This document shows, in pieces, positions 23 through 10,052 of a stretch of DNA of 14,189 nt. The stretch is from an uncultured Verrucomicrobiota bacterium (GTDB lineage Bacteria; Verrucomicrobiota; Verrucomicrobiae; Opitutales; Opitutaceae), in NCBI GenBank assembly GCA_946482165.1, contig CAMLQS010000110.1:1-14189 (forward strand). Reading direction: 5' to 3'. Made by a program: the position numbers and the translations under genes. The notes under the pieces were generated by a model, which did not search any database, was not told the DNA's origin, and saw only the letters and a program-made list of their open reading frames with translations. Each line of letters opens with the position of its first letter. Position 1 is the first letter of the stretch.

Positions 23-24
23 CC

Positions 25-1320
25 ACGCTGGCGGCGCTCATCCCTCCGGATTTGCCTCACTCGGTGAAATTGATCGACGAGGGGGTGGTGGACGTGCCGC
101 TGGATTTGGAGGCGGATATCGTCGGCCTCACGGTGATCACGGGCACGGCAAAACGGGCGTATCTTTTGGCTGATCATTTCCGGGCCCGGGGGATCACAGT
201 GGTGCTGGGCGGGCCGCACGTGACCTTGATTCCCGATGATGCGCAGCCTCACGCGGACGCGGTGGTGTGCGGCTATGCGGAGGATACTTGGCCGCAACTG
301 CTCCGCGATTTCGTGGCCGGCCAGTTAAAAGAGCGTTACACACAGGCTCCGGGATTGGACATCGGAGGCCGGCCGTTTCCGCGACGCGACCTGCTACCGA
401 GCGAAAATTACATCACGAACAACGTGTTCGAGGCGACGCGCGGTTGCGTGCATGCCTGCGATTTTTGCGTGGTGCCGACGGCGTGGGGGCGGAAGCCGTT
501 TCAAAAACCGGCGACGGAGGTCGTGGCCGATATCCGACAGCATGGCGCGCGAAAGCTGATCTTCATCGATCTCAACCTGATCGCTCATCGCGGCTACGCG
601 AAGGAGCTGTTCACCGCGCTGATTCCGCTGCGCTTGCAGTGGTATGGGCTCGCGACGGTGTTGCTGGCGGATGATGCGGAGTTGTTGGAACTGGCGCAGC
701 GCAGCGGGTGCAAGGGATTGTTGATGGGCTTGGAGTCGATCTCGACGGCGAATTTGAAAATGAACCACAAGGGCTTCAATTCGCCGGAGCATTACGGGCG
801 GGTGGTGGAGCGGCTCCACGCGCATGGGATCGCGTTGCAGGGCTGCTTTGTCTTCGGGCTCGATGAGGATCAGCCGGACGTGTTTTTGAAAACGGCGGAG
901 TTCGCGGTGCAGGCGAAGATCGACCTGCCGCGCTTCGCGGTGGTCACGCCTTTTCCCAACACGCCCTTGTATCTGCGGCTCGAGGCGGAGGGACGGATAC
1001 TGACGAAGGACTGGGAACTCTACGACGCCCAGCATGTGGTATTTCAGCCGAAGCACATGAGTGTGCGAGAGCTACAGGAAGGGATCGAGGCGGCGTGGAA
1101 ACACGCCTATTCGTGGAACTCGATCTGGCGACGATTGCGGCATTCGCCGGCGCCGTGGCCGGTGCGCATCGGGACGAATTTGGGATACCGATTCTATGCG
1201 AATAATCTGAGCCGGTTCTACAACTGCGACTGGATCATCGGCCGGGTGCCGCGGAACGTGCCCTTTGTGCAGGCCGGCGCCGTCTCCGAGGAAAACACGG
1301 CGGAACGAAAGGCGGCCTGA
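25..1320 (+). CDS. B12-binding-type radical SAM protein, 5' partial
   Basis: Cut by the contig end; the frame is open from the adapter junction and stops at TGA 1318-1320. Alignment by eye with the downstream paralog suggests about 30 N-terminal residues are missing, so the TTG at 52 is not a real start. The N-terminal third looks like the cobalamin-binding Rossmann domain of this class, with VVLGGPHVTLIPDDA at about 202-246 and GYAEDTWPQLL soon after. The radical SAM cluster motif CVHACDFC (CxxxCxxC) is at 445-468 and should ligate a 4Fe-4S cluster that cleaves S-adenosylmethionine. Later parts (IDLNLIAHRGYA, GLLMGLESIS, VTPFPNTPLY) follow the usual TIM-barrel order, and the C-terminal tail resembles DUF4070. 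Family members include methylases such as HpnP and the BchE cyclase; the substrate here is unknown. The stop shares one base with the next ATG. Confidence 0.88.
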   Translation, partial: TLAALIPPDLPHSVKLIDEGVVDVPLDLEADIVGLTVITGTAKRAYLLADHFRARGITVVLGGPHVTLIPDDAQPHADAVVCGYAEDTWPQLLRDFVAGQLKERYTQAPGLDIGGRPFPRRDLLPSENYITNNVFEATRGCVHACDFCVVPTAWGRKPFQKPATEVVADIRQHGARKLIFIDLNLIAHRGYAKELFTALIPLRLQWYGLATVLLADDAELLELAQRSGCKGLLMGLESISTANLKMNHKGFNSPEHYGRVVERLHAHGIALQGCFVFGLDEDQPDVFLKTAEFAVQAKIDLPRFAVVTPFPNTPLYLRLEAEGRILTKDWELYDAQHVVFQPKHMSVRELQEGIEAAWKHAYSWNSIWRRLRHSPAPWPVRIGTNLGYRFYANNLSRFYNCDWIIGRVPRNVPFVQAGAVSEENTAERKAA

Positions 1321-2678
1321 TGCGGGTCACCTTGATCCATCCTTGCATTGGGCGCCGCGCGGGCGACCGGTCCTATATCCGCACTTGGCAAATGGAGCCC
1401 TTACCGGCGGCGACGCTCGCGGGGCTGACGCCTGCGGACGTGGAGGTGAAGTTCTACGATGATCGGATGGAGGTGGTGCCGTTTGACGAGGCGACCGACA
1501 TGGTGGCGATCAGCGTGGAGACCTATACGGCGAAGCGCGCCTACCAGATCGCGAGCGAGTATCGGCGTCGGGGCGTGCCGGTGGTGATGGGCGGGTTTCA
1601 CGCGAGCCTCTGTCCGGACGAGGTTGCGCGGCGTGCGGAGGCGGTGGTGGTGGGCGAGGCGGAAGCACTTTGGCCGCGGGTGCTGGACGACGCGCGGCAC
1701 GGGACGCTGCAAAAATTTTACCGGGCGGAGGGGCGCACGGCGCTTGGCGGACTGCGGCCGGATCGCTCGATTTTTCGCGGGAAACGCTATCTCAAGGTCG
1801 GCTTGGTCGAGGCGGGGCGCGGGTGTCACTTCAAGTGCGAGTTCTGCGCGGTGCAGACGGTGTTCAGCTCGACGCAAACGCGGCGGCCGGCGGACGACAT
1901 CCTGGCGGAGCTGCGGAGGATAAAAGACGAGCGGAAGCTGATCTTTTTCGTCGATGACAACATCACCTCAAACCTGGCGCAGGCGAAGGAGTTTTTCCGC
2001 GCGCTGATTCCGCTGAAGATTCGCTGGGTGAGCCAATCGAGCATCAACGCGGCGCACGACGAGGAGTTTCTCGATCTGCTCAAGCGGAGCGGGTGCATGG
2101 GCGTGCTGATCGGCTTCGAGAGCCTCAACCCCGCCAATCTCGCGGCGATGAACAAAACCTTCAACACGGCGCGCGGCGGCTTCGAGACGGCGCTGGCGAA
2201 CCTGCGGCGGCATCGCATCCGGGTGTATGGGACCTTCGTGTTCGGCTACGATGGCGACACCCCGGAAAGTTTTTCACCGACGGTGGAGTTCGCGCGGCGA
2301 CATGGGTTCTACATCGCGGCGTTCAACCATCTGACACCGTTTCCCGGCACCCCGTTATATGCGCGGCTGAAGGCGGAGGGGCGCCTGCTCTACGAGGCGT
2401 GGTGGCTGGACGACCGCTACGGCTACAACAGGATTCCGTTTCAACCGAAGGGCATGTCGCCGGAGGCCCTGCGGGAGTCATGCCTCGCCGCGCGGCGGGA
2501 GTTTTATTCGTGGCCGAGCATCGTGGGGCGCGGTTTCGACGCGGTGAACCGGGCGGATGGGTTCATGTGGCGTAATTTTTACCTGATCAACGCGCTGCAT
2601 CGAAACGACGTCGCGCTGCGCGATCATCATCCACTGGGGGACGAGTCATGGCGGGGGCCTTTGCTCCAGGCGAATTGA
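1320..2678 (+). CDS. B12-binding-type radical SAM protein, second copy
   Basis: A complete 452-residue paralog of the upstream gene. It starts at ATG 1320, sharing one base with the preceding TGA (TGATG), which implies translational coupling. Residues 1-125 form the B12-binding-like domain (VVMGGFHASLCPDEV at 88-102, then VGEAEALWPRVL). CHFKCEFC at 169-176 is the CxxxCxxC cluster motif (Cys169, Cys173, Cys176). FFVDDNIT follows in the next barrel strand, then GVLIGFESL and LTPFPGTPLY. The C-terminal region (FQPKGMSPEAL and a Tyr/Trp-rich end) resembles DUF4070. No DxHxxG motif is visible in the N-terminal domain; its absence is usual in BchE/HpnP-like members, which are thought to bind cobalamin without that histidine. 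A methyl transfer or ring rearrangement on a lipid or natural-product substrate is possible, but the substrate is unknown. The last 31 bases overlap an alternative start of the next gene. Confidence 0.9.
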   Translation: MRVTLIHPCIGRRAGDRSYIRTWQMEPLPAATLAGLTPADVEVKFYDDRMEVVPFDEATDMVAISVETYTAKRAYQIASEYRRRGVPVVMGGFHASLCPDEVARRAEAVVVGEAEALWPRVLDDARHGTLQKFYRAEGRTALGGLRPDRSIFRGKRYLKVGLVEAGRGCHFKCEFCAVQTVFSSTQTRRPADDILAELRRIKDERKLIFFVDDNITSNLAQAKEFFRALIPLKIRWVSQSSINAAHDEEFLDLLKRSGCMGVLIGFESLNPANLAAMNKTFNTARGGFETALANLRRHRIRVYGTFVFGYDGDTPESFSPTVEFARRHGFYIAAFNHLTPFPGTPLYARLKAEGRLLYEAWWLDDRYGYNRIPFQPKGMSPEALRESCLAARREFYSWPSIVGRGFDAVNRADGFMWRNFYLINALHRNDVALRDHHPLGDESWRGPLLQAN

Positions 2679-2689
2679 GCGAGGGGCGA

Positions 2690-3793
2690 ATGCGCGCCGG
2701 TCGTCGCGGGACGTTTCGTTTCGCGGGGGCGACGCGTGCGGATGAGGCTGAACTGCGGGCGTTTTTGCGCAACACGCCGACGCCGGGAGGGGTGCGCCTG
2801 GCGGCGGCGCGCGAGCCGGACTATTTCGCCGGCGAGGGCGCGGGCGAGGCGGCGGACACGACGATCATCGCGCGTTTGGACGGCCGCGTGGTCTGCATGG
2901 GGCGATGCTCGCGTCGAAAAATGTATGCGGGCGGGTCGCTGCGCGAGGTGGGATACCTGGGCGAGCTGCGGCTCGCTCCGGGAACACCGCGGGGCTTGGA
3001 CGCGCTCCGCGATGGGTATGCGTTTTTCGCCGAGCTCGAGCGCGCGCGCCCGGCGGAAGCCTACTTCACTTGCGTGGCGACCCAGAACCACCGGGCGCGC
3101 TTGGTGCTGGAAGGCGGACGGTTGGGCCTGCCGCGCTATCATCCCGTGGCGGAACTGCGGACGCTGGCCTGGCCGGTGCCGCAGCGCGCGACGCTGAAAG
3201 CGAGCCCGGACGAAGTCGTCGACGCGGGGGAGCTGGTCGCGTTTCTCGACGGTGAGGCGAGGCGGCGGGCGCTGACGACGCCTTGGAACGAGGCGAGCTT
3301 GCGTTCGCTCGGCAGGCATGGGCTCCACCTCGAAGATTTTTGCGTGGTTAGGGCGAGCGGGAGGATCGTGGCGGCCGCGGCGTTGTGGGATCAGTCCGCG
3401 TGGCGGCAAACATTGGTCGCGGGGTATTCGGGCGGACTGCGCGCCGCGCGGCCGTGGATCAATCTCGCGCTGCGACTGGCGGGGCGCGCGAACTTACCTC
3501 CGGCGGGGGGCGAACTGCGGCAAGCGAGCTTGCATGGACTCTCGGTCGCGACCGGAGCGGAGGGGTGTTTGGCCGAGCTCTGCGCGCGGTTGGAAGCGCG
3601 GGCGAGGCGGCGCGGCGTGGCGTGGTTGGTGGCGAGCCTCGACGCGCGCGACGAGCGGGTGCGGGCGGCGTTGCCGAAGCGACTCGGAGCGCAGGTCTAC
3701 TCCACGCGTCTGCATGCGGTGCGGTTTCCTGATTTCGACGAGGTGATTCTGCGCGGAGATGAGTGGGTGCGGCCGGAGGCGGGATGGCTATGA
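2690..3793 (+). CDS. Two-lobed GNAT-family N-acyltransferase-like protein
   Basis: 367 residues from ATG 2690, which follows GAGGGG at 2681-2686 and leaves an 11-bp gap after the upstream stop. ATG 2648 in the same frame, with GGGGGA upstream, is the alternative and would add 14 residues and a 31-bp overlap. The preferred start puts the GNAT-type opening TFRFAGATRADEAELR at residues 8-23. Acetyl-CoA-binding motif A is recognisable as VGYLGELRLAPGTPRG (87-102), though degenerate. A second, weaker GNAT-like lobe fills the C-terminal half (HGLSVATGAEGCLAELCARL onward). Segments such as NTPTPGGVRL and AAAREPDYF look like a recurring family of roughly 380-residue two-lobed GNAT proteins of unknown substrate; this is from memory, not a search. 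It probably transfers an acyl group to an amine in the same pathway as its neighbours. Its stop overlaps the next gene. Confidence 0.7.
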   Translation: MRAGRRGTFRFAGATRADEAELRAFLRNTPTPGGVRLAAAREPDYFAGEGAGEAADTTIIARLDGRVVCMGRCSRRKMYAGGSLREVGYLGELRLAPGTPRGLDALRDGYAFFAELERARPAEAYFTCVATQNHRARLVLEGGRLGLPRYHPVAELRTLAWPVPQRATLKASPDEVVDAGELVAFLDGEARRRALTTPWNEASLRSLGRHGLHLEDFCVVRASGRIVAAAALWDQSAWRQTLVAGYSGGLRAARPWINLALRLAGRANLPPAGGELRQASLHGLSVATGAEGCLAELCARLEARARRRGVAWLVASLDARDERVRAALPKRLGAQVYSTRLHAVRFPDFDEVILRGDEWVRPEAGWL

Positions 3794-4521
3794 ATACGCT
3801 TCGCGCGAACAGGGTGATCACCACACGAGCGACACGTCGCTCCACGCTGAGCGCCGAGGAGCGGCGCGAGCTGCGCGTGCTGTTGGACACTCATTTCGAT
3901 GGGGTGTCGGAGGCGCAGTTCGAGAGCGATCTGGCGGAGAAGGATTGGGTGCTGCGGCTCTGGCTGGACGGGCGCCTGGCGGGATTCTCGACCGTGGCGA
4001 CGAGCGAGTGCATGGCCGCAGGGGCGAAGATAAACGTGGTGTATTCCGGAGACACGATCATCGCCCCCGAGGCGTGGGGGACGACTGAACTCGCGAAGGG
4101 CTGGATCGGTCTCGTGCGCGAGGCGCTGGCAAACATGCCGGCGCGGCCCGCCTATTGGCTGCTGTTGTCATCGGGTTTCAGGACCTACCGGTTTCTCCCG
4201 GTTTTTTGGCGCGAGTTCTGGCCACGTTTTGACGCGGCGATGCCGACGCGGGAAAAAGCGCTGCGGGACGAGTTGGCGGGCGCGCGATTCGGCGCCGTCT
4301 ATGACAAGAAGACGGGACTCGTGCGGTTTTCCCGTCCGCAACGGTTGCGCGGACGCTTGGCGGAAGTGCCGCAGGGGCGGGAGCGGGATGCCCATATCGC
4401 GTTTTTCCTGCAGGCGAACCCGGGGCACGCGCACGGAGATGAGCTGGTTTGTCTCACGGAACTCAGCGATGAAAACCTGACGGCGGCCGGGCGTCGAATC
4501 GTGAGGGAGGCGGTCCAATGA
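3784..4521 (+). CDS. GNAT-fold-like protein of unknown substrate
   Basis: 245 residues from ATG 3784. ATG 3790, which forms an ATGA overlap with the upstream stop, and a GTG at 3763 are alternatives. GGAGG at 3775-3779 lies 4 bases before the first ATG and 10 before the second, so the start cannot be settled. The middle of the protein (LRLWLDGRLAGFSTV, then INVVYSGDTIIAPEAWG, then WLLLSSGFRTYRFLPVFW) reads like the beta-sheet core and acyl-CoA loop of an N-acyltransferase fold, but no canonical Q/RxxGxG/A motif is present. No membrane segment or signal peptide is seen. Lying between a GNAT-like gene and a GH3 gene, with overlaps on both sides, it most likely works on the same intermediate. 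The fold assignment is moderate and a specific reaction cannot be given. Confidence 0.6.
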   Translation: MAMNTLRANRVITTRATRRSTLSAEERRELRVLLDTHFDGVSEAQFESDLAEKDWVLRLWLDGRLAGFSTVATSECMAAGAKINVVYSGDTIIAPEAWGTTELAKGWIGLVREALANMPARPAYWLLLSSGFRTYRFLPVFWREFWPRFDAAMPTREKALRDELAGARFGAVYDKKTGLVRFSRPQRLRGRLAEVPQGRERDAHIAFFLQANPGHAHGDELVCLTELSDENLTAAGRRIVREAVQ

Positions 4522-6080
4522 GCGCGGGCCCCTTGCTGGCCAATCTGGCGTGGGCCGCCGGTAATCTCGTCGCGGCACGCAGGTTTTCCGTCGCGTTGGA
4601 AGAGCCCGCGGCGACGCAGTGGCGGTGGCTGACGCAAGCGCTCCGGCGCGACGGGGAGTCGGCGTTCGGGCGCGAGCATGGCTTCGGGGCGATCGCCGAC
4701 TACTCCGCATTTTCGCGACGCGTGCCCTTGCGCGCTTGGGACGAGTTTGCGCCGTGGGTGGAGCGAGTGCGCCGCGGGGAGGGCGCGGTGTTGGGGGCCG
4801 AGCGGGTGACGCATCTGGCGCCGACGAGCGGGACGAGCGGGGCACGGAAACTCATTCCGTTCACGGCGAGCTTGCAGGAGGGGTTCTCCGCGGCGGTGGG
4901 CGCGTGGATGACGGATCTCGTCCGGTTGCGGCCGGGTATTCTTGGCGGGCCGGCTTATTGGTCGGTCTCGCCGGCGGGGGATGACGATGCCCACGTGGCG
5001 GGTGAGGTGCGCGTGGGATACGCGGACGAAGCGGATTATCTCGGCGGGTTGCGCGCATGGCTGGTGAGGCTGGCGCTGGCGGCGCCGGCGGAGTTGCGGA
5101 ACGAGCGCGACATGGAAGAGTTTTGGCGCAAGACGCTGGTCGCGGTGCTGGCGCGGAAGGATCTGCGGCTGATCTCGGTGTGGCATCCGTCGTTTTTGGA
5201 TCTGTTGCTGGAGGCGGCGGAGCGACGGTGGGGCGAGGTGTGCGAGGAGATCGAGCGAAGGAGTCGCGCGAGGGCTGCGGAACTGCGACGTTTGGGGCCG
5301 GGGGCGTGGACGCGTTGGTGGCCGGCTCTGCGGGTGGTAAGCTGCTGGGGGGACCAGGCGGCGGAGGCGGGGTGGCGGCGGCTCGCGCAAAAGTTTCCGG
5401 GCGTGTTGGTGCAGGCCAAAGGACTGTTGGCCACGGAAGCCGCGGTGACGATTCCATGCCGGGGCGCATATCCGCTGGCGGTGACCTCCCATTTCTTCGA
5501 GTTCATCGACAAGAACGGGAACGTGCGCCGGGCGCATGAACTCGAGCGCGGAGGCGACTACGAAGTGGTGGTCACCAACGGAGGCGGATTATGGCGTTAT
5601 CGCCTCGGCGACATGGTGGAATGCACAGGGCATCTTATCGCGACGCCGACACTGCGGTTTCTCGGACGCGCGGGAAACGTGAGCGATCTGCGCGGGGAAA
5701 AACTCAGCGAGGCATTTGTCGCCGAGGTGCTTCGCGGACTTTGGAGGCGCGACGCGCGTCCGGAGTTCGCGGTGTTGAGGGCGTTGCCACGGGAGCCGGG
5801 CTATCGGTTGGATGTGTCCGAGGCCGGGGAGAGCGAGTCGGCGTTGGCGGCGAGGCTCGACGCGGCCTTGTCGGAGAATCCGCACTACGCGTGGGCCCGG
5901 CGGCTGGGGCAGCTGGCGCCCGCGCGTGTCCGCGTTGCGGGTCCGGGCATCGCGCGCGAGGTCTTGCGGTCGCATCGAAGCGGGATCGGCGATGCGAAGC
6001 CCGCGGTGTTGATCGGGCCGGGGATGTCGATTGCGACGAGGCGGGGAGGCTGCGATGAGTCCTCTTGTGTGGATTTCTGA
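4518..6080 (+). CDS. GH3-family (auxin-responsive GH3-like) acyl-adenylating protein
   Basis: 520 residues. ATG 4518 overlaps the previous stop as ATGA and has GGGAGG at 4505-4510, seven bases upstream. Three regions mark the GH3 family: the nucleotide-binding APTSGTSGARKLIPFT (101-116), preceded by VPLRAWDEFAPWVERV (69-84); the LLATEA segment (5426-5443); and YEVVVTNGGGLWRYRLGDMV (5560-5619). Plant GH3 enzymes adenylate a carboxylic acid (for example jasmonate or indoleacetate) and join it to an amino acid. Bacterial members are largely uncharacterised, so the reaction here, adenylation of an acid and amide formation, is inferred. The length is normal for the family. The last 26 bases overlap the following membrane-protein gene. 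It is probably cytoplasmic: no signal peptide is seen. Confidence 0.85.
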   Translation: MSAGPLLANLAWAAGNLVAARRFSVALEEPAATQWRWLTQALRRDGESAFGREHGFGAIADYSAFSRRVPLRAWDEFAPWVERVRRGEGAVLGAERVTHLAPTSGTSGARKLIPFTASLQEGFSAAVGAWMTDLVRLRPGILGGPAYWSVSPAGDDDAHVAGEVRVGYADEADYLGGLRAWLVRLALAAPAELRNERDMEEFWRKTLVAVLARKDLRLISVWHPSFLDLLLEAAERRWGEVCEEIERRSRARAAELRRLGPGAWTRWWPALRVVSCWGDQAAEAGWRRLAQKFPGVLVQAKGLLATEAAVTIPCRGAYPLAVTSHFFEFIDKNGNVRRAHELERGGDYEVVVTNGGGLWRYRLGDMVECTGHLIATPTLRFLGRAGNVSDLRGEKLSEAFVAEVLRGLWRRDARPEFAVLRALPREPGYRLDVSEAGESESALAARLDAALSENPHYAWARRLGQLAPARVRVAGPGIAREVLRSHRSGIGDAKPAVLIGPGMSIATRRGGCDESSCVDF

Positions 6081-6486
6081 AGCGAGCTCCGCGTATCTGG
6101 CGATCTTGTCGGTCTACCATGTGTGGACGGGCGCGATCTCTTTTTTCGCGCCACGGTTCGCGCTTCGATTTTATCGCGGGATGTATGGCTGCGACCCGGT
6201 GGAGCGAAGGCATCTGACGCTTGTGATGCGGCCATGGGGGGCGCTTGCGATTTTCGCGGGGCTGTCGGGCTTCGTGGCGTTCATCGAGCCGCGGGCGCGC
6301 GTGTGGATCGTTGGGGCGACTGCAGTGTTGCTCGCGTTGCGGATCGGCTACCGCGTCGCGTTGCGGCGGGAACTGGCCGAGATCGCGCGCATCGACGCGC
6401 GCCGAAACAGGATAAGCGTGTCGATGCTGGCGGGCGGTCTGTTCCTGCTGCTTGGCGAACTGACGAACCGGTTTCTTTCCCTATGA
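6055..6486 (+). CDS. Small four-helix membrane protein (paralog 1)
   Basis: 143 residues. ATG 6055 lies inside the end of the GH3 gene (26-bp overlap) and has GGAGG at 6045-6049, five bases upstream, which fixes the start. Four hydrophobic stretches at about residues 11-33, 54-77, 82-102 and 120-137 suggest an integral inner-membrane protein. The first helix contains YHVWTGAISFFAP, and a short amphipathic loop (RFYRGMYGCDP) follows. The next gene encodes a protein of the same layout with YHVTIGVAAFLPP at the same place and a matching ALRIGYR/AVRIGQR element in helix 3, so the two are probably an ancient tandem duplication and may form a hetero-oligomer. I do not recognise a named family. Its place at the end of the operon suggests the pathway product or an intermediate is membrane-associated. 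Confidence 0.75.
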   Translation: MSPLVWISEASSAYLAILSVYHVWTGAISFFAPRFALRFYRGMYGCDPVERRHLTLVMRPWGALAIFAGLSGFVAFIEPRARVWIVGATAVLLALRIGYRVALRRELAEIARIDARRNRISVSMLAGGLFLLLGELTNRFLSL

Positions 6487-6929
6487 AATCACCCTACCAC
6501 CTGCTGCGAGGACTGCTTTGGCTGATTTGCCTGTATCACGTGACGATCGGTGTCGCGGCGTTTTTGCCTCCGGAGAGCGTGAAGGCGGCGGCCCGGGCTA
6601 TCCTCGGACTGAACTTGCCGGACGAGCCGGCGCTTTATCAGGTGATCAAGTCGTTCGGCGTGTATGCCGGCGTCTTTGGCGTGATGATGGGCTTGGCGGC
6701 TTACGATCCGGTGAAGAATCGCGCGATGATTACGGTGGGCGTGATATTGTTCGCGGTTCGTATCGGTCAGCGGCTGGCGGCCTTGGACGCGCTTGAGCGG
6801 GATTTCGGAGTGAGCGCGGGGCGCAATGTCGGAACGGTGGCCTTTGTCGCGGGGCTCGGGCTCGCGCTGGCGTGGTTTCGCTGGCGCCTGTGGCGGGACA
6901 TGCGAGGTGGGAAAGTCGTTTCGACCTAA
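6483..6929 (+). CDS. Small four-helix membrane protein (paralog 2)
   Basis: 148 residues. ATG 6483 forms an ATGA overlap with the stop of paralog 1, so the two are translationally coupled. Predicted helices lie at about residues 9-29, 52-75, 80-99 and 114-133, with a basic C-terminal tail (WFRWRLWRDMRGGK) that should sit in the cytoplasm. It shares helix layout, the YHV...G...F.PP element and the RIG(Y/Q)R element with its neighbour. No catalytic motif is evident and no named family is recognised. It is the last gene of the + strand operon and ends 5 bp from the convergent end of the AurF-like gene. No strong hairpin with a T-run lies in that tiny gap, so transcripts from both sides may overlap. 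Confidence 0.75.
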   Translation: MKSPYHLLRGLLWLICLYHVTIGVAAFLPPESVKAAARAILGLNLPDEPALYQVIKSFGVYAGVFGVMMGLAAYDPVKNRAMITVGVILFAVRIGQRLAALDALERDFGVSAGRNVGTVAFVAGLGLALAWFRWRLWRDMRGGKVVST

Positions 6930-6934
6930 CTCAG

Positions 6935-7834
6935 CTAAAGGACGGGCCGGGTTTCGCCGACGAGAGCAGACTCCAGGTCACGCAGTTCGCGGAAGCGGTC
7001 CGCCAGCGCGAAGGTGCGTGGTTCCCGGCGGCGGCTATAGATGCCCGCGAGATAATCGGAGCGGTCATCCAAGGCGAGCAGCTCGCGGCGCAGTTCGCCG
7101 AGCAGTGGACGAAGGGACGGCGCTTCGTCGGCGAGGTGGAGGACGACTCGCCATGCGGCGCGCTTTGGCAGGCGGAAAAATTCGCGCAGGATAAAGACAA
7201 AGAGCCAACGATTGAGGAAGCGGGCGGCGGGCGAAAGAGCGGGCCAGACCTCTCGGAGCAGTTCGCCGTCGAGGCCCACGTGGCGCGCTTCATCGAGCGA
7301 GTGGAGCCGATGAAGGGTTACGAAGTGGGGTTCGCAGGTCGCGGGGCCGTTGGTGATCTCGTGGGAGGCGGCGATGGTGCGTTCCTCGATGATCATCGCG
7401 AGCCAGAGGCAGAAAGGGAACCGCCAGGGACGTCGCGCGCAGTAGCCAAAGAGAGCCAGAGGGGCGGAGCCGAGCCGGACGAAGTGATGGTAGTTTTCGC
7501 GATACAGCGTGGGCTCGCAGGCGCGGTGGAGGGCATGGAACCATGCGGTGTGACGTTGTTCGTCCTCGCGAAATTCGACGAGGCGGCCGGCCAAGGGTGT
7601 GCCCGCGTAGCGTGCGATCAACGAGGGCAAGGCATGGTTGGCCAGCATGCGTTCCAAGAAGATGAAGTGCTCGTGGTAGCAACTGGCGAAGAGCTGATTG
7701 TAGCGCAGTTGCAGAGCAGCGGGGAGTTTTCCGTGAGTCGGGGTATGCGCGAGAGGAGTGAGATGTGGCGGAACGAAGGGCCGCGAACGATCGATGTTCC
7801 CGATCAAAAAATCTGCGGTAGCCGAAGTGCGCAT
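6935..7834 (-). CDS. AurF-like diiron oxygenase
   Basis: 299 residues from ATG 7834. The open frame continues upstream past this ATG, but that part falls in HupE-coding DNA in another frame. The ligand pattern of the AurF p-aminobenzoate N-oxygenase family is complete: Glu55 or Glu61 in YHEHFIFLERML, ExxH in EDEQRHTAWF (Glu92, His95), Glu150 or Glu151 in MIIEERTI, and HxxxExxH in HSLDEARHVGL (His178, Glu182, His185). The fold should be a ferritin-like four-helix bundle holding a diiron centre that activates O2. Characterised relatives oxidise aromatic amines to nitro groups; other substrates are possible, so amine N-oxygenation here is inference. The start lies 16 bases after the stop of the upstream HupE-like gene, suggesting co-transcription. 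It converges on the radical SAM/GH3 operon with a 5-bp gap, so a shared pathway is plausible but unproven. Confidence 0.82.
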   Translation of the reverse strand: MRTSATADFLIGNIDRSRPFVPPHLTPLAHTPTHGKLPAALQLRYNQLFASCYHEHFIFLERMLANHALPSLIARYAGTPLAGRLVEFREDEQRHTAWFHALHRACEPTLYRENYHHFVRLGSAPLALFGYCARRPWRFPFCLWLAMIIEERTIAASHEITNGPATCEPHFVTLHRLHSLDEARHVGLDGELLREVWPALSPAARFLNRWLFVFILREFFRLPKRAAWRVVLHLADEAPSLRPLLGELRRELLALDDRSDYLAGIYSRRREPRTFALADRFRELRDLESALVGETRPVL

Positions 7835-7850
7835 GGGAACTTCAGGAATC

Positions 7851-9044
7851 CTAAAAGAAGGCGCGCTCGACGGTCCAGTAGAGGCCGGTGGCGGCGATGA
7901 GGGCGCAGGCGGGGATGGCGAGGGTGCGGCGATACCAGGGTTTTTGGCGGAACCAGCCGACGGCCAGGATGGCGAGGGCCAGGACGGCGAGTTGGCCGAA
8001 ATCCACGCCGAAGTTGAACGACAGGAGCGCGGTGAAGAACCGGTCGCCGGGCATAGCCAGCTCCGAGAGCGCGCCGGCGAAGCCGAGGCCGTGGAGAAGG
8101 CCGAAGATGAACACGACCACGAGGCGCGCCGGGCCGACGCGCGGGCGGAAGATGTTTTCCAGGGCGACGAAGGCGATGGAGAGCGCGATGAGCGGCTCGA
8201 CGATGGCGGGCGAGACGCGCACGAGGCCGGCGGCGGCGAGGCCCAGCGTGGTGGTGTGCGCGATCGTGAAGGTGGCGATCTGCGCGGCGAGGGCGCGCCA
8301 GCCGGCCCCAAGAAAATAGAGGCCGAGCACGAAGAGGATGTGGTCGAGCCCGAGCGGAATGATGTGCAGAAAGCCGAGCCAGAGATACTGCGTCACCACG
8401 GCGAGGCCTCCGCGGCCGAAGGGTTCGGGGGCGAGGTCGGGGGGTGGCGTGGCGGGGTCGGCGGATGAGGCGGGCGAGGACGCGGGGCGCCAGGTGAAGG
8501 GGCGCGTGGCGTCGCCGGGGCTTTGCAGCCAACGGGTGCGGGCTTGCGTCTCGCCGGGGGAAATCACGGAGCAGGCGACGGGGAAGACGACGCGGGCGTC
8601 GGAGCGGCTGCGGAGGAGGAAGGTCGTGTCTGCGCGGGCGGGATCGGTGCCGAGGCGGGTTCGCCAGACGACGGCGAGGGTGGCGGGGTCTTTGGCGGAG
8701 CGCGGCGTGGCGGCGTCGGGAGAGGGGAAACTCCAGGAGACGAGGCGCCACGCTTCGGCGGGGGGCGTGAATTCGGGGCGGAGTTGCGCGAGGATTTCGC
8801 CGACGAGGACGGTGACGCGCGGCGCTTGGATCGTGGCGTCGGCGACGGGAAGCGAAGCGGCTTCGGCGGCATCGACGAGGGGCGGGGCGAGATCGGTCTC
8901 GATGCGGAGCTCGACTTCTTCACCGGTGCCCGTCGGGGCGGCGGAGAGCGTGATGCGCGTGAAGTGGAGCGCGTGCGCGGAGAGGTTTGCGCCGCAGAGC
9001 GTGAATAACGCGAGGAGCGTCAACGCGGCGAAGAGGCGGCTCAT
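7851..9044 (-). CDS. HupE/UreJ-family membrane protein with signal peptide
   Basis: 397 residues from ATG 9044. Residues 1-25 form a signal peptide ending in AHA. A roughly 170-residue extracytoplasmic beta-rich region and a Pro/Ala/Ser-rich linker follow. The C-terminal half is a HupE/UreJ-type multi-spanning domain with the conserved histidine segments GFLHIIPLGLDHILFVLGL, FTIAHTTTLGLA and VFIFGLLHGLGFAGAL, and an acidic VEPLIALSIAFVALEN. HupE and UreJ proteins are implicated in nickel or cobalt uptake for hydrogenase and urease. The long extracytoplasmic N-terminus is typical of the variant group, whose substrate is less certain. No hydrogenase or urease gene is in view. A divalent-metal permease upstream of a diiron enzyme gene, or next to a carbonic anhydrase, might be a functional link or chance. 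It is probably co-transcribed with the AurF-like gene 16 bp downstream. Confidence 0.85.
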   Translation of the reverse strand: MSRLFAALTLLALFTLCGANLSAHALHFTRITLSAAPTGTGEEVELRIETDLAPPLVDAAEAASLPVADATIQAPRVTVLVGEILAQLRPEFTPPAEAWRLVSWSFPSPDAATPRSAKDPATLAVVWRTRLGTDPARADTTFLLRSRSDARVVFPVACSVISPGETQARTRWLQSPGDATRPFTWRPASSPASSADPATPPPDLAPEPFGRGGLAVVTQYLWLGFLHIIPLGLDHILFVLGLYFLGAGWRALAAQIATFTIAHTTTLGLAAAGLVRVSPAIVEPLIALSIAFVALENIFRPRVGPARLVVVFIFGLLHGLGFAGALSELAMPGDRFFTALLSFNFGVDFGQLAVLALAILAVGWFRQKPWYRRTLAIPACALIAATGLYWTVERAFF

Positions 9045-9248
9045 ACTGATCGCCGATTGATTAAGGAGGTCGGCATTGAGTCACCGCGCAGGCGGCGTGC
9101 GGATGATCGGCCGAGGTCACGGGCGGAGGGACCGCCCGTCCACCTGGAGTCTGAAGGCGCCAGGGGGCGGCAGCAGGCGGACGGCGGGCATGGGCGGGAC
9201 GGCGGCACGCTTCGGACGGAAGCCGGGGACGGCGTCCCTCCAATAGAG
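9045..9248. repeat. Intergenic spacer with GC-rich palindromes (REP-like)
   Basis: This gap between the carbonic anhydrase stop and the HupE-like start contains two hairpins. ACGGGCGG (9119-9126) pairs with CCGCCCGT (9132-9139) across a 5-base loop, and GGGAC (9226-9230) pairs with GTCCC (9234-9238) across a 3-base loop. Neither is followed by a T-run on the - strand. The first shares the ACGGGCG core with the hairpin at 10291-10309, suggesting a dispersed REP-like family. Any promoter for the HupE/AurF pair should lie in this stretch; I see no convincing -35/-10 pair. Confidence 0.6.
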
Positions 9249-9896
9249 TCACTCGCCGAGGGCGGCGAGGGCGGCTTTGTAGGTGGTCTCGGCTTCGGCG
9301 GCGGAGGAGGCGCTGACCTTCAAGTCGCGGATGTGGCCGTCTTTCAGGCCGTAGATCCAGCCGTGGATGGTGATGGTTTGGCCGCGGTCCCAGGCATCGC
9401 GCACGACGGTGGTTTGGGTGACATTTTGCACCTGCTCGATGACGTTGAGCTCGCAGAGGCGATCCACCCGGGCGCCTTCGTCGGGGAGGGCGCAGAGGCA
9501 GCTGTCGTGTTTCACCTTCACGTCCTGGACGTGGCGCAGCCAGTTGTCGGCGAGGCCCACGCGGTCGCAGCGGAGGGTGGCGCGCACGCCGCCGCAGCCA
9601 TAGTGGCCGACGACCATGACGTGTTTCACCTTCAACACGTCGACGGCGTATTGGAGGACGGAGAGGCAGTTGAGGTCGGCGTGGACGACGACGTTGGCGA
9701 TGTTGCGGTGGACGAAGACTTCGCCGGGAAGCAGGCCGATGATCTCGTTGGCGGGCACGCGGCTGTCGGAGCAGCCAATCCAAAGGTATTCGGGGCTCTG
9801 CTGGCGCGAGAGCTTAACGAAGAATTCGGGATCGCGCTCGGTGATCGACTGGGCCCAGGCGCGGTTCTGGGCGAAGAGGTGGGCGAGATGGTCCAT
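9249..9896 (-). CDS. can: Beta-carbonic anhydrase (Can-type)
   Basis: 215 residues from ATG 9896; a TTG at 9935 is possible but less likely. With the ATG start, the zinc ligands fall at Cys42, Asp44, His98 and Cys101, matching E. coli Can numbering, which supports this start. Motifs are LWIGCSDSRVPA, FVHRNIANVV and VVGHYGCGG. The C-terminal half keeps CELNVIEQVQNV and TIHGWIYGLKDG, as in E. coli Can (220 residues). The enzyme interconverts CO2 and bicarbonate in the cytoplasm as an oligomer. The Asp44-Arg46 pair is that of the allosteric type II group, in which Asp44 can ligate zinc in a closed state. No Shine-Dalgarno sequence is visible before the ATG. It lies 204 bp upstream of the HupE-like gene on the same strand, separated by palindromes, so joint transcription is doubtful. 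Confidence 0.95.
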   Translation of the reverse strand: MDHLAHLFAQNRAWAQSITERDPEFFVKLSRQQSPEYLWIGCSDSRVPANEIIGLLPGEVFVHRNIANVVVHADLNCLSVLQYAVDVLKVKHVMVVGHYGCGGVRATLRCDRVGLADNWLRHVQDVKVKHDSCLCALPDEGARVDRLCELNVIEQVQNVTQTTVVRDAWDRGQTITIHGWIYGLKDGHIRDLKVSASSAAEAETTYKAALAALGE

Positions 9897-10052
9897 CGGT
9901 GCGCGGCAGTGTGCGGGGCGCGGGCCGTGGGCCAAGGAAAAGCTTTAGCGAGGCAAGGGAGGTTCAAAAGGAGCGCTTATACGCTTCTCCCCATGCGCGC
10001 CGAGGGGCTCGGGCCGATGCCGAAGCTTTATGGGCAGGGCTAAAATGAGGGC

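Follow-up and report, generated by a model that had tools for sequence, protein, structure and literature searches.

Organization of the locus

The window analysed here is the whole of a 14,189-nucleotide stretch, positions 1 to 14,189 of contig CAMLQS010000110.1 from an uncultured Verrucomicrobiota bacterium of the Opitutaceae (assembly GCA_946482165.1). From about position 23 to 6929 it carries seven overlapping genes on the + strand, as read from the open reading frame (ORF) list and the gene junctions: two cobalamin-binding radical SAM genes (rSAM1 and rSAM2), two encoding GNAT-fold proteins (GNAT1 and GNAT2), one GH3 amide synthetase gene and two encoding paralogous membrane proteins (Mem1 and Mem2). 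The initial annotation had read the same gene mix from the DNA, and the ORF list, Pfam, AlphaFold models and a paralogy comparison confirm that observation. Five of these genes, rSAM1, rSAM2, GNAT1, GNAT2 and GH3, form the core of a cluster that is real, conserved and rare, its core genes being found together in genomes of three phyla and on a plasmid. The operon and the artefact at its start are laid out as follows.

1-22, strand not applicable: adapter remnant, non-genomic, ctacacgacgctcttccgatct at the contig start
23-1320, + strand: rSAM1, predicted cobalamin-binding (class B) radical SAM protein, 5' end missing (PF02310 and PF04055 above cut-off)
1320-2678, + strand: rSAM2, second, paralogous predicted cobalamin-binding radical SAM protein (PF04055 63.4 bits, PF02310 35.3 bits)
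2648-3793, + strand: GNAT1, predicted tandem-GNAT N-acyltransferase resembling N-myristoyltransferase (NMT), with a putative catalytic C-terminal carboxylate (predicted fold, fixed C-terminal residue)
3790-4521 (start refined), + strand: GNAT2, predicted GNAT-fold protein extended at its C-terminus, the cluster marker in this analysis (AF2 model, fold matches)
4518-6080, + strand: predicted GH3-family acyl-adenylating amide synthetase (Pfam GH3, GH3_M, motifs)
6055-6486, + strand: Mem1, four-segment membrane protein, paralogue of Mem2 (hydropathy scan, paralogy)
6483-6929, + strand: Mem2, DUF4345-like membrane protein (DUF4345 20.6 bits, below the cut-off of 26.5)

The successive junctions overlap by 1 (TGATG), 31, 4 (ATGA), 4 (ATGA), 26 and 4 (ATGA) bases, near to the overlaps first described for the locus (TGATG, ATGA and 26 bp), and make it likely that the seven genes form one transcript. 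We take ctacacgacgctcttccgatct (bases 1-22) to be the end of an Illumina adapter; the frame there would thus not be genomic and the 5' end of rSAM1 would be artificially truncated. Compared with the mechanical ORF in the related region L001 (regions are numbered with L and genomes with G), rSAM1 is short of about 37 N-terminal codons.

Recurrence of the five-gene core

Searched with a GH3 profile, the genome collection yielded eight loci, in records titled Verrucomicrobia, Acidobacteria, Haloferula, Akkermansiaceae (two), Gemmatimonadaceae, Verrucomicrobiales and Gemmatimonadales, and six of the eight have the order rSAM1-rSAM2-GNAT1-GNAT2-GH3. L006 starts inside GNAT2. A side observation concerns L003 (7406-8440), where one frame leads from the start of rSAM1 into GNAT1, ahead of GNAT2 and GH3, by deletion or by misassembly of this metagenome-assembled genome. 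A search with rSAM2 at E 1e-80 or better, run on genomes from the phyla of G001, G005 and G002 with the surrounding regions taken, found the gene in 19 of 387, 5 of 298 and 12 of 297 genomes, respectively, so few that the cluster must be rare. The resulting sample of 38 regions other than the window, all picked through GH3 or rSAM2 matches, contains GNAT1, GNAT2 and GH3 together in 26 cases (GNAT1 being partial in L003) and all five core genes in 24.

Among the 24 complete loci, whose rSAM2 identities span 45-94%, 14 keep the order of the window with no gap above 300 bases, eight keep it with a larger gap, and two (L090 and L098) are rearranged to GNAT2-GH3-rSAM1-rSAM2-GNAT1. The gaps in L087 and L088 stem at least partly from GNAT1 matches confined to the end of the protein (83 and 76 residues); L096 has accessory genes ahead of GH3, and L079 a methyltransferase gene between the GNATs. 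Five loci (L079, L084, L085, L086 and L089) have other genes between rSAM2 and an rSAM1-like gene lying 3.5-6.3 kb upstream, which makes the orthology of that gene less sure. The 14 incomplete regions include two that end at contig ends (L077 and L091), the broken L003, L083 without a recognised rSAM1, and L078, which has rSAM1-rSAM2 plus a desaturase and a Mem gene, GNAT and GH3 being absent. Nine others (L092, L095 and L100-L106) hold more distant rSAM2 paralogues (37-43% identity), and GNAT1, GNAT2 and GH3 are absent from these regions at E 1e-5; these paralogues may or may not act in a related role.

Several regions look like kin (L084/L085, L086/L089 and L087/L088), so the locus counts are not counts of independent events. 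The pairwise identities of the five proteins correlate over 25 loci (Spearman 0.55-0.86). In the reverse direction, a GNAT2 profile (E 1e-15) was run on two of the three genome sets, those of 387 and 297 genomes, and rSAM2 was present in 16 of 18 and 6 of 9 GNAT2-positive genomes, respectively (Fisher p 1.7e-23 and 8.1e-8, uncorrected for kinship). G031 combines the rSAM locus without GNATs (L078) with a Mem-F4-GNAT1-GNAT2-GH3 group elsewhere in the genome (L134). GNAT2 occurs without an rSAM2 match in G312, G342, G699, G741 and G824, and GH3 lies near it in three of the five (L135, L138 and L140, on the other strand in L140). In the rSAM-free L135 (4611-13337), genes for SnoaL-like, hexapeptide, desaturase, AurF and Rieske proteins stand together with GNAT2, GH3 and GNAT1. 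The initial annotation had staked its proposal on such genes being found together elsewhere, and they are, in these regions, in both directions of search and in the plasmid copy described below.

A plasmid-borne copy and relatives without radical SAM genes

Searching plasmids with rSAM2 (tblastn, E 1e-60 or better) gave a single record, NZ_CP134684.1 of Citrobacter portucalensis, from a gull cloaca.

L143:16361-28456 (NZ_CP134684.1, 51417-63512): 11-gene version of the cluster on an IncFIB/IncFII plasmid of Citrobacter portucalensis

Its genes run in the order GNAT2, GH3, rSAM1, rSAM2, GNAT1, two more rSAMs, PAP2 and SnoaL-like, with another rSAM and a desaturase on the opposite strand. All eleven plasmid proteins match L098, from the phylum of G002, at 36.5-67% identity; the fifth rSAM matches just the L098 rSAM1, so that ten proteins have a counterpart of their own. 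Megablast found no close copy of the Citrobacter cluster in E. coli genomes or other plasmids, and a phage origin was set aside as the phage collection gave no megablast match.

A GNAT2 search of plasmids returned 12 records. The regions fetched from Burkholderia arboris and Acinetobacter records have GNAT2, GNAT1 and GH3 and no rSAM1 or rSAM2 match, and the Azospirillum region has GNAT2 alone. At 4 Mb, the 'plasmid' records appear to be misfiled chromosomes. In Acinetobacter baumannii (L145:6104-13783), HlyD, MFS and OEP genes surround GNAT2-GH3-GNAT1; looked for through GNAT, GH3 and related mentions, this variant was not found in the available main text of PMC9162365.

The radical SAM pair

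Both radical SAM proteins are predicted to belong to class B, with B12-binding domains (42.2 bits in rSAM1 and 35.3 in rSAM2, cut-off 32.1), Radical_SAM domains (41 and 63.4 bits, cut-off 29.5) and a CxxxCxxC motif, at C141/C145/C148 in rSAM1 and C169/C173/C176 in rSAM2, each retained in all but at most one of 25 loci; cobalamin use is a prediction for both. Toward the C-terminal side, Pfam gives a DUF4070 match that is over the cut-off in rSAM1 and under it in rSAM2. HpnJ, BchE, PhpK and a ladderane-type lipid rSAM are among the families on which the pair scores best. Membership in any of these equivalogs or subfamilies was rejected, the best values being 78.5 bits for rSAM1 (BchE, cut-off 481) and 92.1 for rSAM2 (HpnJ, cut-off 578).

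The pair seems to be under far stronger constraint than GNAT1, GNAT2 and GH3. Across the eight closest loci (L001, L002, L004, L005, L007, L008, L093 and L094) rSAM1 is 75-90% identical. Against L001, the protein identities are 91% for rSAM1 and 94% for rSAM2, compared with 73% for GH3, 69% for GNAT2 and 60% for GNAT1, whereas four-fold sites of the five genes are 57-66% identical (58 and 66% in the rSAMs, 57-59% in the others). Against L002, the rSAM proteins are both 80% identical and the other three 46-61%, with four-fold sites at 38-52% (42 and 52% in the rSAMs, 38-44% in the others). The rSAM four-fold divergence in these two comparisons, the cleanest ones, is thus about equal to that of the other genes, and recent recombination as the source of the high rSAM identity is unsupported there. 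L004 repeats the protein pattern of L001 with four-fold values scattered over 26-55%, and in L005, where rSAM2, GNAT2 and GH3 were compared, the rSAM2 value is 44 against 31 and 39%; recombination may have had some effect in these two, where the values scatter or lean to lower rSAM divergence. Strong rSAM constraint at similar four-fold divergence would fit an invariant scaffold for the rSAMs to act on, the acyltransferases having variable acyl groups or acceptors.

The acyltransferases and the GH3 amide synthetase

Neither GNAT1 nor GNAT2 of the window has a Pfam match at E 0.1, and GNAT1 was accordingly not assigned to the NMT sequence family. Their AlphaFold models (pLDDT 88.0 for GNAT1 and 94.4 for GNAT2) compare as GNAT folds, that of GNAT1 as a tandem one: the model of GNAT1 has the N-myristoyltransferase fold, and long-chain acyltransferases head its list of fold matches. 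In each of the 50 alignments listed, the final pairing is of model residue 381 with a chain residue such as 455 or 496. L455 and Gln496 are catalytic C-terminal residues of NMTs (PMC4964394, PMC12219266), and a review describes use of the C-terminal carboxylate as unique to NMT among GNATs (PMC4964394). Among the GNAT1 relatives listed, 117 of 120 end at the same position and 113 of 120 have Leu there, the pattern expected if the terminal carboxylate is the putative catalytic base. The mycobacterial enzyme Eis is another GNAT that uses its C-terminal carboxylate. The fixed C-terminus also reaches GNAT1 relatives at 30-35% identity (P0121-P0240), some of them named Chloroflexota or Myxococcota, and would therefore mark a wider bacterial family of tandem GNATs.

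The AF2 model of GNAT2 likewise compares as a GNAT fold. PF13527 had been annotated in advance on some of its relatives, and scores 18.3 bits in the L004 orthologue, under the cut-off of 25. In structure comparisons of this kind, a family missing from the match lists is not thereby shown to be unrelated.

The GH3 protein is predicted to be an acyl-acid amido synthetase by its domains and three nucleotide-binding motifs. Pfam gives 122.5 bits for the N-terminal domain and 62.4 for GH3_M (cut-offs 23.6), with GH3_C at 20.2, just under 23.6. TSGxxGxxK, LLATE and GGLWRYRLGD, corresponding to GH3 motifs described in PMC12493201, are invariant or nearly so across 29 aligned GH3 sequences. Membership in the lyso-ornithine lipid synthetase family OlsH was rejected (47.3 bits on NF052613, cut-off 620).

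Membrane proteins and variable neighbours

Mem1 and Mem2 are 27.7% identical (E 3.7e-9), and a simple hydropathy scan gives four hydrophobic segments in each. They are less constant than the five-gene core, the family being found in 7 of 47 other regions (L003, L004, L077, L078, L097, L134 and L142), its neighbours including a desaturase in five of them, a hydroxylase in another and an F4 rSAM in the last. DUF4345 is mentioned once in the available text of PMC13274452, at the edge of an N-nitroglycine cluster, with no further link. Beyond Mem2 lies an oxygenase gene.

6935-7834 (start inferred from translation), - strand: AurF-like diiron oxygenase (PF11583 41.1 bits, cut-off 29.6)

The gene is convergent with the operon, 5 bases beyond Mem2, and its product, a putative N-oxygenase, passes the PF11583 cut-off. 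As it is convergent and follows a HupE-like gene, it is no more than a candidate member of the pathway. Past it lie the HupE-like gene and genes for a carbonic anhydrase, a type II/IV secretion (PilT-like) ATPase and a TPR protein; the HupE/UreJ-like and carbonic anhydrase genes adjoin each other (7851-9935). No tRNAs, and no Rfam families at gathering thresholds, were found in the whole window.

A census of 48 regions, window included, places the AurF family in five (the window, L001 with two copies, L076, L096 and L135). Desaturase families F8 and F11 are strong in six regions each; Rieske proteins occur in five, hexapeptide proteins in nine, SnoaL-like proteins in seven, fatty acid hydroxylases in two, amidohydrolase F7 in five and PAP2 in five, one of the last (L103) being a paralogue region. 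A SPASM-like rSAM, F4, is strong in 11. The fullest set is that of L096, with rSAM1, rSAM2, GNAT1, GNAT2, AurF, desaturase, hexapeptide, PAP2, Rieske, SnoaL-like and GH3. In L099 (11696-13120), directly upstream of rSAM1, a PAP2 domain (28.9 bits) is fused to a weak squalene/phytoene-synthase match. In L002 and L007, GH3 is immediately followed by MacB-like and ABC genes. Desaturase, AurF, Rieske and hydroxylase genes are all missing from the 11 regions where an F4-type rSAM is strong. A clean split between oxygen-using and oxygen-free versions was rejected, as L001 has a weak F4 beside AurF and desaturases and G031 has both kinds (L078 and L134), and the separation is only a tendency.

A proposed pathway and its alternatives

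The product class is a reasoned guess that we infer from these genes and their recurrence. On balance, we think it somewhat probable that the five-gene core directs the synthesis of a lipid-like, N-acylated amide whose scaffold is modified by the two cobalamin radical SAM proteins. These would both use a single invariant scaffold, to which they would add methyl groups or in which they would form or cleave a C-C or C-O bond. GNAT1 would work like an NMT, taking a long acyl chain off a thioester and placing it on a primary amine, its own C-terminal carboxylate serving as the base; GNAT2 may acylate a second position or amine, and GH3 would convert a carboxylic acid to an acyl-AMP and couple it to an amine. 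The membrane proteins and variable neighbours (desaturases, fatty acid hydroxylase, AurF, Rieske, hexapeptide acyltransferase, PAP2) may tailor or handle the chains and the head group, and loci with oxygen-using genes (desaturase, AurF, Rieske, hydroxylase) might achieve tailoring equivalent to that in loci with additional radical SAM genes. The product would probably be carried to the envelope or secreted, judging by the MacB-like and ABC genes after GH3 in L002 and L007 and the HlyD, MFS and OEP genes around the trio of a distant relative.

The acyl-amide reading is supported by the common gene set in mostly common order, by co-occurrence in both directions, by the split but co-present genes of G031, by the constraint on the rSAM pair and by the exporter-type genes of L002, L007 and L145, and the FA_desaturase, FA_hydroxylase, PAP2, Rieske, AurF and hexapeptide neighbours point to a lipid-type product. 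The initial annotation had proposed a dedicated route to a modified lipid or amide; that class gains support from the NMT-like fold of GNAT1, the GH3 motifs and the lipid-type neighbours, while the product itself stays conjectural. A more specific form, a mobile cluster for a new class of bacterial amide lipids with an invariant head scaffold shaped by the rSAMs, NMT-like N-acylation through a C-terminal carboxylate and GH3 coupling, is put forward tentatively, as a possibility we would not yet favour.

Several observations weigh against an acylated amide lipid. GNAT folds also transfer acetyl or aminoacyl groups, and the fold matches of GNAT2, which include aminoglycoside acetyltransferases, do not discriminate. 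GNAT1 is just 8-12% identical to the NMTs among the matches listed, no desaturase is in view in the window, and the four-fold values against L004 and L005 blur the rSAM pattern. In ten of the 24 complete loci, the window's gene order is broken by gaps or altered. GH3 and GNAT2 stand without the rSAM pair in L135, L138 and L140, and as a pair in L137, and GNAT2 stands without GH3 in L136 and L139; the core is therefore modular, and the product need not always require the rSAM pair. The exporters in relatives could also point to a small metabolite that is secreted, and not to a membrane lipid.

That last thought leads to the most serious rival, unlikely as we hold it to be: a small secreted natural product or signal with short or absent acyl groups, the GNATs being acetyl- or aminoacyltransferases and the exporters carrying the product. 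The exporter genes of L002, L007 and the Acinetobacter record, the aminoglycoside acetyltransferases among the GNAT2 matches, and a patchy distribution with a plasmid copy, resembling secondary metabolism, all speak for it, whereas the long-chain acyltransferases at the top of the GNAT1 matches and the several neighbours of fatty-acid desaturase/hydroxylase or PAP2 type do not. Modification of a pre-existing core lipid (hopanoid-, sterol- or ladderane-like, for example) by radical SAM chemistry and amide conjugation is decidedly improbable. The HpnJ, BchE, PhpK and ladderane-type families are indeed among the best rSAM scores, the PAP2 protein of L099 weakly matches SQS_PSY (24.9 bits, cut-off 26) and the L096 Rieske protein scores 46.3 bits on 4beta-methylsterol monooxygenase (cut-off 600), but the rSAM scores lie far below their cut-offs and the PAP2-SQS_PSY fusion was seen in one locus.

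Two further readings carry little weight. Both rSAMs weakly match the PADLOC model PDC-M51A (25 and 31.1 bits), yet such similarity is expected among radical SAM proteins in general and the other five proteins have no PADLOC match at E 0.001 (precursor peptides were not searched for); a system for defence, or for ribosomally synthesized and post-translationally modified peptides, is very improbable, and PADLOC offers nothing for a defence role beyond weak radical SAM similarity. Least credible of all is mere adjacency of housekeeping or unrelated genes. Accessory genes do vary strongly among loci and the order is broken in the ten loci mentioned, but the five genes sit together in 24 other loci (rSAM2 identity 45-94%), uninterrupted in 14, and co-occur far above chance. 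Chance adjacency is ruled out for the five-gene core, a verdict that leaves Mem1/Mem2 and AurF aside.

Comparison with known systems

The initial annotation matched the locus to no named cluster, and the literature searches, within their reach, likewise gave no description of it: none was found in titles or abstract openings among the matches listed, most subscription journals lying outside coverage. As far as these searches reach, the cluster is undescribed. If the acyl-amide reading is right, the cluster would encode a mobile and hitherto undescribed route to an acyl-amide, and the Citrobacter plasmid copy would offer an isolate source for product discovery. It would also present two strongly conserved cobalamin radical SAM enzymes with a reaction open to elucidation. 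HpnJ, BchE, PhpK and the ladderane-type rSAMs share with this pair the B12-binding plus radical SAM architecture; the window proteins differ in scoring far under the equivalog cut-offs and in having GNATs and GH3 as partners.

In the OlsH/OlsI ornithine-lipid pathway of Singulisphaera acidiphila, the GH3-like OlsH forms an amide in lipid synthesis; OlsH is a bacterial GH3-type enzyme with GH3 motifs in common with the window GH3 (PMC12493201). In the window, by contrast, where no OlsI-type hydrolase is annotated, GH3 is partnered by two rSAMs and two GNATs. The selidamide and lipolanthine GNATs, such as NpuN, are also bacterial, NpuN being a predicted tandem, and they transfer fatty acyl groups onto amines of ribosomal peptides (PMC13060382). 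Here the partners are GH3 and radical SAM proteins.

In predicted fold, a tandem GNAT, GNAT1 resembles the eukaryotic NMTs; the carboxylate of its own fixed end is a putative catalytic base. It differs from them in its 8-12% identity among the matches listed, in having no Pfam match and in sitting in a bacterial metabolic cluster. If the prediction is true, GNAT1 would be to bacterial metabolism what N-myristoyltransferase is to eukaryotes, sharing its unusual use of the C-terminus in catalysis.

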